From Inconstantimicrobium porci (GTDB lineage Bacteria > Bacillota > Clostridia > Clostridiales > Clostridiaceae): DNA of 64,000 nt. The stretch is taken from NCBI RefSeq assembly GCF_009696465.1, contig NZ_VULX01000002.1, forward strand, positions 1 to 64,000, given 5' to 3'. The notes under the pieces were generated by a model. The model saw only the letters and a program-made list of their open reading frames with translations, did no database searches and was not told the origin of the DNA. The translations under genes and the position numbers were made by a program. The first letter of the stretch is position 1, and every line of letters starts with the position of its first letter. Shown here in pieces: positions 1,839 to 62,714 of this stretch.

Positions 1839-3380
1839 TTATTCAAACTCAATAGTAGCTGGTGGCTTTCCTGTTAGGTCATACAGTACTCTGTTGACAC
1901 CTTTTACTTCATTTACAATTCTTCTTGTTACTGTTCCTAATACTTCCCATGGAAGTTCTGCTGATTCAGCTGTCATGAAATCACTAGTGTTTACTGCTCT
2001 TAGAGCTATTGCGTAATCATAAGTTCTTCCGTCTCCCATAACTCCTACTGAACGCATGTTAGTAAGTGCCGCAAAGTATTGTCCGATGTTTTTGTCTACT
2101 CCTGCTTTTGCTATTTCTTCTCTATAAATAGCATCTGCTTCCTGAACTATCTTTACTTTTTCAGCTGTAACTTCACCAATTATACGAATTCCAAGACCTG
2201 GTCCTGGGAAAGGCTGTCTGTATACAAGCTTTTCAGGTATTCCAAGTTCAAGTCCAGCTTTTCTTACTTCATCTTTGAAAAGAAGTCTTAATGGTTCGAT
2301 TATTTCCTTAAAGTCAACATAATCAGGAAGTCCTCCAACATTATGATGTGACTTTATTACTGCTGATTTTCCAAGTCCACTTTCAATAACATCAGGGTAA
2401 ATTGTTCCCTGAACAAGGAAATCTACCTTTCCTATCTTTTTAGCTTCTTCTTCAAATACTCTGATGAATTCTTCACCGATAATCTTTCTCTTCTTTTCAG
2501 GATCTTCAACGCCTTTAAGTTTTTCGTAGAATCTATCCTGAGCATTTACTCTGATAAAATTAAGGTCATATGGGCCGTTTGGTCCAAATACTTCTTCAAC
2601 TTCATCTCCTTCATCTTTACGAAGAAGACCATGATCAACAAACACACATGTAAGCTGCTTGCCAATTGCCTTTGATAAAAGAACTGCAGCAACTGATGAA
2701 TCTACTCCACCTGATAAAGCACAAAGAGCTCTGCCATTACCTACTTTTTCACGGATTTCCTTTATTGTCTTTTCAACAAAAGAATCCATCTTCCAGTCTC
2801 CAGCACACTTACAAATATCCATAACAAAGTTTCTTATCATCTTTATTCCTTCAACTGTATGCATTACTTCAGGATGGAACTGAACTGCATATAAATTCTT
2901 CTCACTGCATTCCATAGCTGCAACTGGGCACACTGGTGTTTTTGCTGTTACTACAAATCCTTGTGGAGCTTTTTCTATGTAATCTGTATGACTCATCCAG
3001 CATATTGTTTTTTCTGATACACCATTAAATAGCTTTGAGTCTGTCTTTACCTCTACTTCTGTCTTACCATATTCACTTACAGGAGCAGTTTTAACACTTC
3101 CTCCAAGCATATAAGACATCATTTGAGAACCATAACATATACCAAGCACTGGTATTCCCATGTTGAATAATTCTTTATTGCATAATGGTGAATCTTCACC
3201 ATATACACTGTTAGGTCCACCTGTAAAAATTATTCCCTTTGGATTCATTTCTTTTATTTTTTCTAAACTTAATGTATATGGATGTACTTCACAATATACA
3301 TGACATTCTCTTACTCTTCTTGCTATAAGCTGGTTGTACTGACCGCCGAAATCTAAAACTAAAACTAATTCTTTTTTCAT
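1839..3380 (-). CDS. guaA: GMP synthase (glutamine-hydrolysing)
   Basis: Converts XMP to GMP with ATP and glutamine, in the cytoplasm. The 513-residue length is normal. The N-terminal class I glutamine amidotransferase domain has the nucleophile loop GICYG and the QFHPE histidine-glutamate motif. The ATP-pyrophosphatase domain has the P-loop SGGVDSS, and the C-terminal dimerisation domain ends in PPATIEFE, as usual. I start at ATG 3380 because GGAGG lies about eight bases upstream; a TTG twelve bases further out would overlap it. guaB lies upstream on the same strand, but a hairpin between the two suggests that guaA has its own transcript or depends on read-through. No purine riboswitch is visible directly in front of guaA. 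Confidence 0.97.
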
Positions 3381-3429
3381 TTTATCCTCCAAGAACTATA
3401 TTTTCAAATCATTAAGTATCCTTAACTTA

Positions 3430-3494: not shown

Positions 3495-4994
<1,500 letters not shown>

Positions 4995-5087: not shown

Positions 5088-5136
5088 AACATAAATATGA
5101 ATAATGTAATTCATATTTATACAATATACTAATCTC

Positions 5137-5201
5137 ACTTATAGATGGAAATTAATGGTTTCCAGTAGAAACGCCCTGCCTTATTCAGAGCTTATATAAG
5201 T
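5137..5201 (-). promoter_or_regulatory. Purine riboswitch aptamer (guanine type) controlling guaB
   Basis: On the minus strand a P1 stem ACTTATA/TATAAGT closes a three-way junction. P2 carries loop AATAAGG, J2/3 reads TTTCTAC, and P3 carries loop CCATTAA. The base corresponding to position 74 in J3/1 (TCTAT) is C, which pairs with guanine; adenine aptamers have U there. Both loops deviate from the common ATATGG and CCGTAA forms, but the GG and CC that make the loop-loop pairs remain. The downstream hairpin at 5049-5087 makes this a transcriptional OFF switch. Bases 5202-5401 hold only AT-rich sequence, presumably including the promoter. Confidence 0.85.
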
Positions 5202-5401
5202 AACTTTTTCTTGATTTTTATTCATTATAATGCAATAGATATAACATGTCAACAATTTGTAAACGTAAACCGAAAATTAATTTATGATATTTTTTCCTTC
5301 ATTTTTAAATTACAAATGCATTTTTTTATTCATTTTGCCTTTTGCACATAAAAAAGTACCTATAAAATACATTATAGATTCCTTCATTACAGCTATTTAT
5401 A

Positions 5402-37403: not shown

Positions 37404-37501
37404 TAAAGAGAATTTTTACGTATAATTTTTGTTGATTTTTTTACAATATTCGTTTAAAATCTTCTTGTACGAATAATTAAATATTTAATTATAATAACAT
37501 T

Positions 37502-37571
37502 CGCTTATATAATTCTAGTAATATGGTCTAGATGTTTCTACGAGCTACCGTAAAAAGCTTAACTATGAGTA
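37502..37571 (+). promoter_or_regulatory. Guanine-type purine riboswitch in front of a flavoprotein gene
   Basis: P1 pairs CTTATA with TATGAG. P2 loop reads TAATATGG, J2/3 reads GTTTCTAC, P3 loop reads ACCGTAAA, and J3/1 reads AACTATG with C at the specificity position, so guanine is the expected ligand. All core elements are canonical. The aptamer ends seven bases before GGAGG (37578-37582) and 18 bases before the ATG, and no T-run terminator follows, so control is probably at translation initiation. Confidence 0.9.
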
Positions 37572-37589
37572 CATTTTGGAGGTTTTATT

Positions 37590-38993
37590 ATGAAATATGA
37601 TGTAATAATAGTAGGAGCAGGTCCAGCAGGAATTTTCACAGCTTTAGAAGCAAAATCTAAAAATCCGAACAAAAACATTCTTCTTATCGAAGAAGGCAGA
37701 AGAATTGATAAAAGATCTTGTCCTAAAGCTAAGACTAACAAATGCGTATCATGCAAACCTTACTGTAACATTACTTCAGGATTTTCTGGAGCAGGCGCAT
37801 TTTCTGATGGAAAGTTATCATTAAGCCATGAAGTTGGTGGAGACCTTCCCGAATTAGTTGGAATAAAGGTAATTCAAGATTACATAGACTATACTGACAA
37901 AATATACTTAAGCTTTGGTGCTGACACAAAAGTTGAAGGCGTTGGACAAAATGAAGCAGTTAAAGAAATTAGAAAAAAAGCCATTCAAGCTGACTTAAAG
38001 CTTGTTGACTGTCCTATAAGACATTTAGGAACAGAAATGGCTCATCAGATATATTTAAAAATACAAAACAAACTTTTAGAACTTGGTGTTGAAATTAAAT
38101 TCAATACTGTTGTAAAAGATCTTGTAATTGAAAATTCAGAAATCAAAGGTGTTATTATCGCTGATACTATGAATCAGACACAAGAAGACACTGTTTACGG
38201 AGATATGACAGTAGTTGCAACAGGAAGAAAAGGTGCTGACTGGTTAAGTGATATGTGCGTAAAACACGATATAGATCACAAAGCTGGTACTGTAGATATT
38301 GGTGTCCGTGTGGAAGTAAGAAATGAAATTATGGAAAGTGTTAATAACGTATTATATGAATCAAAACTTATTGGCTACCCTGCTCCATTTAGGGACAAGG
38401 TCAGAACTTTCTGCCAGAATCCAGGTGGATTTGTAAGCCAGGAAAACTACGATAATGATTTAGCAATTGTTAATGGTCACTCATATAAAAACAAGAAATC
38501 AAACAACACTAACCTTGCTATATTAAGTTCACACAACTTCTCTTCTCCTTTTAATGAACCTATTAAATATGGAAAAAGAGTTGCTGAACTTGTAAATATG
38601 CTTGGAGGAGGAAAAATACTTGTTCAAAGATATGGTGATATCCTTGATGGTAAGAGAACTTGGCCAAAGGAACTTCATCAGTCAAATGTTGAATACACTC
38701 TTCCAGATGCAGAAGCTGGAGATTTAACTTCAGCAATTCCTTATAGAACTATGACAAATATATTAAACTTCATAGAAGCTATGAACACTGTAGTTCCTGG
38801 TTTTGCAAGCAGAGAAACTTTGCTTTATGGTCCAGAAATCAAGTTCTACAGCAACAAAGTTAATATCAATAAGGATTTCCAGACAAACATCAAAGGACTA
38901 TACTGCTTAGGCGATTCAAGCGGTTGGACAAGAGGTCTGATGATGGCTTCAGCTATGGGTGTTATGATGGGTAGAAATATCGCTCAAAATTAA
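37590..38993 (+). CDS. FAD-dependent oxidoreductase of the COG2509 type
   Basis: 467 residues. The N-terminus is a dinucleotide fold, IIVGAGPAGIFTALEAKSK. It is followed by a cysteine cluster Cys44, Cys52, Cys55 and Cys59 in RSCPKAKTNKCVSCKPYC and by SGFSGAGAFSDGKLSL. The second half has VATGRKGADWLSDM and the C-terminal flavin site GLYCLGDSSGWTRGLMMAS. This fits the COG2509 'FAD-dependent dehydrogenase' group of unknown substrate. The cysteines could hold a metal or act in redox. The gene is directly behind a guanine riboswitch, so it may act in purine chemistry (inference). A terminator follows it. Confidence 0.85.
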   Translation: MKYDVIIVGAGPAGIFTALEAKSKNPNKNILLIEEGRRIDKRSCPKAKTNKCVSCKPYCNITSGFSGAGAFSDGKLSLSHEVGGDLPELVGIKVIQDYIDYTDKIYLSFGADTKVEGVGQNEAVKEIRKKAIQADLKLVDCPIRHLGTEMAHQIYLKIQNKLLELGVEIKFNTVVKDLVIENSEIKGVIIADTMNQTQEDTVYGDMTVVATGRKGADWLSDMCVKHDIDHKAGTVDIGVRVEVRNEIMESVNNVLYESKLIGYPAPFRDKVRTFCQNPGGFVSQENYDNDLAIVNGHSYKNKKSNNTNLAILSSHNFSSPFNEPIKYGKRVAELVNMLGGGKILVQRYGDILDGKRTWPKELHQSNVEYTLPDAEAGDLTSAIPYRTMTNILNFIEAMNTVVPGFASRETLLYGPEIKFYSNKVNINKDFQTNIKGLYCLGDSSGWTRGLMMASAMGVMMGRNIAQN

Positions 38994-62196: not shown

Positions 62197-62272
62197 TGGT
62201 GGGTCATCGGAGACTCGAACTCCGGACACCCTGATTAAGAGTCAGGTGCTCTACCAACTGAGCTAATAACCC
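62197..62272 (-). tRNA. tRNA-Lys (anticodon CTT)
   Basis: On the minus strand the 76-nt cloverleaf has acceptor GGGTTAT/ATGACCC, a T-arm with GGAGTTCGAGTCTCC and the loop CTCTTAA, so the anticodon is CTT. CCA is encoded. Confidence 0.96.
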
Positions 62273-62275
62273 ATG

Positions 62276-62349
62276 TGGAGCGGGTGGCGGGAATCGAACC
62301 CGCATAACTAGCTTGGAAGGCTAGGGCTCTACCACTGAGCTACACCCGC
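62276..62349 (-). tRNA. tRNA-Gly (anticodon TCC)
   Basis: 74 nt, anticodon loop CTTCCAA between CTAGC/GCTAG, T-arm GCGGGTTCGATTCCCGC, acceptor GCGGGTG/CACCCGC. CCA is encoded. Confidence 0.96.
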
Positions 62350-62420
62350 AGGTAAAATGTGTATTTTAACCCACAGTTGTTGTTTCATCAAAATTTGTTT
62401 AATAAAATTATTTTATTAAA

Positions 62421-62496
62421 TGGCTGGGGTAGCAGGATTCGAACCTGCGGAATGCTGGAGTCAGAGTCCAGTGCCTTACCGCTTGGCGATACCCCA
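62421..62496 (-). tRNA. tRNA-Gln (anticodon CTG)
   Basis: 76 nt, acceptor TGGGGTA/TACCCCA, anticodon loop CTCTGAC between CTGGA/TCCAG, so CTG. CCA encoded. The CTG form is less common in clostridia than TTG. Confidence 0.95.
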
Positions 62497-62637
62497 TCAC
62501 TAAGTGTCACAACGAAACTTATTATATCATAGTTTTTAAAAATTGCAAACACTTTTTTTAAAAACTTTTCAATAACTTGTCTTATTTTTTAATTATCCAA
62601 AGCTCAACGGCTGTAATTCAAAAACTTGACATAAAAA

Positions 62638-62714
<77 letters not shown>

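Follow-up and report, generated by a model that had tools for sequence, protein, structure and literature searches.

A flavoprotein gene that probably belongs to the purine regulon of Clostridia is preceded by a guanine-class riboswitch superimposed on a predicted PurR-type operator, and its product would work near PurA, in the branch that leads from IMP to AMP. The gene lies in the window, the whole stretch of 64,000 nucleotides analyzed here. The assignment of the flavoprotein to purine metabolism is well supported by sequence comparison, because the aptamer recurs before homologous genes, a PurR-type operator is present, and purA, xpt or nucleoside-transporter genes occur as neighbors; the operator and the neighbor genes are two kinds of evidence independent of the aptamer. 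The first-pass annotation had predicted a role in purine or deazapurine chemistry, of which the purine part is borne out by these observations, while no evidence for a specific deazapurine role was found here. That annotation had noted neither the operator that overlaps P1 nor the predicted ON arrangement of relatives. A widespread protein family for which no described role was found would in this way be assigned to a pathway, with purA as its gene partner and with two sensors of purines.

The leader and the flavoprotein

In a search with the Rfam covariance models, the leader matches the Purine model (RF00167) at 37485-37585 on the forward strand, scoring 69.5 bits where the gathering cut-off is 37 (E-value 3.7e-10 over the 64-kb window) and covering model positions 1-102, its full length. 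A chance origin is rejected on this score and by the recurrence of the aptamer before homologs. As the first-pass annotation had stated, all parts of a guanine aptamer are present (Table 1), among them P1, P2, P3, J2/3 and the C74-type base, with the Shine-Dalgarno (SD) sequence 7 bases after P1, and the start that it had given, 37502, fits the aptamer core. The pocket carries the equivalents of C74, U51 and U47 (xpt numbering) that mark the guanine subclass, and the ligand is predicted to be guanine. The 3.2-Mb genome has four purine riboswitch sites. A second one within the window, at 5122-5219 on the reverse strand, precedes guaB (3495-4949) and guaA (1839-3392) and is of the ordinary kind, its terminator being distinct from the aptamer.

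Table 1. Features of the leader and the flavoprotein gene (window coordinates)
Feature	Position	Strand	Basis
Promoter-like site TTGATT-17-TAAAAT	37432..37460	+	Hexamer scan; weak alone
Predicted PurBox 1 (central CGAA 37470-37473)	37465..37478	+	Box definition in PMC8789054
Predicted PurBox 2 (central TTCG 37500-37503), overlaps 5' strand of aptamer P1	37495..37508	+	
Guanine-type purine riboswitch aptamer, P1-P2-P3 junction	37503..37570	+	Rfam match 37485-37585
P1	37503-37509/37564-37570	+	Read from sequence, alignment
P2	37514-37518/37528-37532	+	Read from sequence, alignment
J2/3 GUUUCUAC	37534-37541	+	U47 and U51 equivalents present
P3	37542-37546/37556-37560	+	Read from sequence, alignment
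C74-equivalent C (guanine type)	37563	+	Sequence and alignment
Shine-Dalgarno GGAGG, exactly 7 nt after P1	37578-37582	+	
ATG start of flavoprotein gene	37590	+	
COG2509-like FAD-dependent oxidoreductase, Cys44/52/55/59, 467 aa	37590..38993	+	ORF, Pfam, Foldseek

The window aptamer shares with RF00167 riboswitches of the xpt and guaA type the three-way junction, J1/2, J2/3, the C74-type J3/1 and the loop GG and CC, at a score far above the cut-off. It differs from them in controlling an uncharacterized flavoprotein, in having Lachnospiraceae relatives with short P2 and P3 helices and a terminator of predicted ON type, and in having nine relatives of the Clostridiaceae lineage (L006, L007, L008, L010, L012, L013, L035, L040, and L041) in which the 3' strand of P3 or J3-1 carries 1-3 extra bases that are absent from the control aptamers. 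These bases may alter ligand preference. According to PMC9295807, xanthine-II and guanine-II riboswitches are descendants of guanine riboswitches, the former consistent with ON switches and defined by U51G together with insertions in J2-3 and J3-1. Extra bases near J3-1 are a likeness to these variants (PMC9295807), but the aptamers here keep U51 and have no J2-3 insertion, and by alignment the window aptamer itself is rejected as a xanthine-II or guanine-II variant on the same two grounds.

The promoter-like site upstream belongs to a pattern found twice in the leader region against 1.6 expected from shuffles, and hexamers resembling it were seen by eye upstream of L006-L010, L013, L035, and L037. 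In Bacillus subtilis, PurBoxes are 14-bp boxes with a central CGAA or TTCG and a spacer of 16-17 bp, and PurR represses purine genes until relieved by PRPP (PMC8789054); such a geometry therefore leaves 26-27 nt between the CGAA and TTCG cores. In the window, CGAA (37470) and TTCG (37500) are separated by 26 nt near the promoter-like site, the spacing of B. subtilis, which makes the pair a predicted PurR operator. The likeness to the B. subtilis operator lies in these central motifs and their distance of 26-27 nt (PMC8789054), whereas box 2 of the window lineage overlaps the DNA of P1, the first helix of the aptamer, and box 2 of the more distant homologs described below is closely followed, in most cases, by a TTGAC-like element.

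A PurR homolog was found in the same genome, and PurR would bind the window boxes. The coding sequence of the homolog (L145, 1172-2010; G000:C34:121000-121796) is split between two overlapping frames that join at an (AT)n run, which may reflect misassembly, disruption of the gene or a slippage site. Across the 3.2-Mb genome, the strict pattern ACGAAY-N24/25-RTTCG gives four distinct sites, three of which precede purA, fhs and the window flavoprotein gene. The pattern is not enriched, its count (2 forward, 3 reverse) being below that of the reversed-pattern control (9 and 8); the position of these hits is telling, and their number is not.

The 467-aa protein, presumably of the COG2509 family, has an FAD-binding Rossmann motif and an FAD-depend_C domain; Pyr_redox_2, FAD-depend_C (PF21688) and GIDA all match above the Pfam cut-off, and no NCBIfam family is above cut-off among the 25 matches listed. 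A four-cysteine cluster, already noticed in the first-pass annotation, consists of C44, C52, C55, and C59 and is invariant in 38/38 aligned homologs. The predicted structure is confident (mean pLDDT 91.5). Among the matches listed, the nearest solved structure is the uncharacterized VP0956 (PDB id: 3nlc), which has the same fold (Foldseek TM 0.80 by query, E-value 2.3e-27, 24% identity) and is also matched by phmmer (E-value 1e-27), but which lacks the four-cysteine motif in the phmmer alignment. Among the papers listed by literature searches, none links the COG2509-like family with purines.

Recurrence of the aptamer, operator and neighbors among homologs

Homologs were grouped by their identity to the window protein as type A (~66-80%) and type B (~46-50%), some being intermediate, and their upstream regions were searched with a covariance model trained on 23 purine aptamer sequences. 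The aptamer lies directly upstream in 17/80 named type A loci (17/79 counting those with upstream sequence, since L108, which has none, is among the 80) and in 7 of 11 other same-family loci (L006-L016); the covariance model found it in none of the 18 type B loci. The first-pass annotation had staked its reading on conservation of the aptamer before orthologs, and this check came out in its favor, since the pairing does recur, although most type A orthologs are without it. Within this sample L009 and L037 come from one genome, and L155 resembles L059, as L157 resembles L090, with identical neighbor proteins, so that each pair may belong to one species. In a tree built from 93 proteins, aptamer presence needs 9 changes (shuffled mean 21.4), at least 5 of them forced by well-supported branches; thus, gain or loss has occurred repeatedly, and the aptamer is spread over several branches of the tree. 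Decayed remains of an aptamer were seen by eye upstream of L015, L054, and L088.

The operator is not confined to genes with the aptamer. In type B, the strict pair was found in 17/18 loci against 0.037 expected, mostly just upstream of a TTGAC-like element, and it also occurs in L014, L044, and L047, three upstream regions without an aptamer. With a relaxed box pattern, which was picked after the sequences had been inspected, a pair at exactly 26 nt is present in 12/22 type A upstream regions, any other spacing being found in at most 3. A first spacing scan with strict boxes across the 80 named loci gave no dominant spacing.

The neighbor genes point in the same direction. The purA gene immediately follows the flavoprotein gene, in the same orientation, in 17/18 type B loci, 6/28 class-wide loci and 1/76 type A loci (the 76 with enough sequence), and xpt takes this place in 4/76 type A and 1/28 class-wide loci; representatives of both genes were confirmed by NCBIfam. 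Neither was found beside the gene in the 12 own-family loci (L005-L016). Some loci have nucleoside-transporter-like neighbors, recognized by similarity and by eye, for which no NCBIfam transporter model is above cut-off among the matches listed. In one genome (G028), a second purine riboswitch precedes the operon after the gene, and this operon holds nucleoside-type ABC transporter genes. The neighbors of type A are otherwise variable, and other neighbor families (aroA/aroC-like, dnaB/rsmI-like, HlyD-type and more) were not noticed to recur as purA does. By eye, the COG2509 gene stands between aroA-like and aroC-like genes in L066, L079, and L094, and homologs stand between dnaB-like and rsmI-like genes, with no adjoining purA, in L170 and L178-L181.

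Direction of switching

For ten leaders of the Lachnospiraceae lineage, a simple score of base pairing was used to ask whether the 3' arm of the intrinsic terminator pairs better with the aptamer or with the sequence that follows it. The P3 region of the aptamer is the better partner in 9/10, narrowly so in L089 (18.0 vs. 17.6); L078 is the exception. The controls were 32 purine riboswitches from the own genome and its relatives (L142, which has the same Clostridium cadaveris aptamer as L009/L037, was excluded), and in none of the 31 with a T-run is P3 the better partner. Folds computed with and without a constraint that keeps the aptamer intact support this for most of the ten leaders, with free energies of about -27 to -40 vs. 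-7 to -15 kcal/mol in L055, L058, L060, L070, L072, and L076, whereas the gap is smaller for L078 and L089 and absent for L080; by the rule of this comparison, L056 has no T-run. A single control from the same genome as one of these leaders, a riboswitch before an NCS2-like permease gene, has its terminator separate from the aptamer.

The bound aptamer and the terminator exclude each other, since the terminator would need the aptamer to unfold before it could form. Guanine is therefore predicted to act as an ON signal for the gene in these relatives, several of which are gut bacteria. In the pbuE adenine riboswitch of B. subtilis, the terminator likewise competes with the aptamer helices, and the ligand keeps transcription going. 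The Lachnospiraceae terminators resemble pbuE in this competition, while the pocket here is of the C74 guanine type and that of pbuE has U74. The aptamer before the flavoprotein gene is the only RF00167 match in 9/10 of these genomes, several of which are draft or MAG assemblies. Guanine-class aptamers, whose usual use is as OFF switches, would thus act as ON switches in genomes in which often no other purine riboswitch was found.

No terminator was found in the window leader, and control there is probably translational. The first-pass annotation had proposed translational control, which stays plausible given the missing terminator and the SD 7 nt after P1. The computed accessibility of the SD in the window and in most Clostridiaceae does not differ from that of swapped-aptamer controls, and no clear anti-SD tied to P1 was found in the window. 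When a longer window leader is folded, the SD is paired at 0.54 in the free and 0.80 in the bound state, which is OFF-like and contradicts the swapped-aptamer comparison. The pairing partner in that fold is UCUUC (37460-37464), which is upstream of the transcription start implied by the promoter-like site; a pyrimidine-rich 5' stretch therefore fails as an SD blocker if transcription begins there.

It is quite possible, if somewhat less probable than the main explanation given at the outset, that the window riboswitch is an ordinary OFF switch that agrees with PurR, that the enzyme performs a step of synthesis or salvage needed when purines are scarce, and that the ON form is a change specific to Lachnospiraceae. 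Such feedback is in line with the repression of purine genes by PurR and its relief by PRPP (PMC8789054), with the four purine riboswitches of Clostridioides difficile, all of which are OFF switches (PMC11477304), with the OFF-like fold of the extended leader, and with the position of P1, which ends 7 nt ahead of the SD and could, when folded, obstruct the ribosome. On the other hand, the window has neither a terminator nor a clear anti-SD tied to P1, the SD-blocking UCUUC precedes the suggested transcription start, and the same-family L012 has an ON-type hairpin. This hairpin uses the 3' strands of P3 and P1, competes with the aptamer, is followed by a weak U-tract, and leans toward ON. For the window, translational control with guanine acting in the ON direction would be slightly more likely than OFF.

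Candidate roles of the flavoprotein

Repression by PurR and a guanine ON switch pull in opposite directions unless the enzyme serves interconversion. A step from the guanine or xanthine side to IMP is suggested because of the partnership with purA, the guanine signal, and the absence of a canonical GMP reductase here and in 54/58 relatives. Our best guess, put forward tentatively and with the odds against it, is a reductase that moves guanine or xanthine to the IMP side and so feeds PurA. PurR would bind the boxes at 37465-37508, guanine would bind the riboswitch, and the enzyme would carry out a redox step on the base or the nucleotide, the least certain part of the scheme, under conditions of ample guanine and a demand for adenine nucleotides, a job that GMP reductase does elsewhere. 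In full, and just as speculative, the protein would be a redox enzyme that has gone unrecognized in the purine interconversion of Clostridia. With its flavin and cysteine cluster it would be the counterpart of GMP reductase, take GMP, XMP, guanine or xanthine as its substrate and supply PurA with IMP. Expression would require both the release of PurR and guanine acting through an ON riboswitch (AND logic), the first helix of this riboswitch being encoded within the PurR operator. Against the main explanation as a whole stand the lack of the aptamer in most type A orthologs and the homologs in non-purine contexts (aroA/aroC-like at 3 loci, dnaB/rsmI-like at 5, by eye).

The likeness to GMP reductase GuaC (TIGR01306) is one of proposed role alone, the conversion of guanine nucleotides to IMP; the flavoprotein belongs to an FAD family and GuaC to the IMPDH/GMPR family. 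No IMPDH/GMPR-type match for the flavoprotein was found in Pfam or among the NCBIfam and Foldseek matches listed. It may work like a GMP reductase, and is not claimed to be one. Canonical GuaC is above cut-off in 4/58 relatives and not in the own genome; it is present in 2/12 genomes with type A (at least 57% identity) and in 2/46 without. Replacement of GuaC by the flavoprotein is not supported by co-occurrence, as there is no anticorrelation and GuaC neither replaces nor excludes the flavoprotein gene.

It is doubtful that the protein is instead an accessory factor, one that serves an iron-sulfur or thiol enzyme of purine synthesis as electron donor, protector or repair factor and does not itself act on a purine. 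The flavin-type fold, the invariant four-cysteine motif and the variable type A neighbors would suit such a factor, but direct guanine control of a single gene, by the only purine riboswitch in 9/10 genomes, fits an enzyme that uses guanine better. MnmG and TrmFO are folate-using flavoenzymes, and the GIDA match above cut-off and the PurR-type operator before fhs in the own genome would agree with action on a folate or formate-linked substrate of purine synthesis; this is the least probable of the alternatives, for it is purA, xpt and nucleoside-transporter-like genes, not folate genes, that occur as neighbors, and control by a guanine aptamer would be unexpected for such a substrate.

Two further observations were made in the course of this analysis. 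In an ORF of L147 (G000:C47:907-3944), the peptide FYINYEECK is repeated, by eye, at regular steps, which suggests a CRISPR-type repeat array, and four tRNA genes are clustered at 62200-62714 on the reverse strand of the window.
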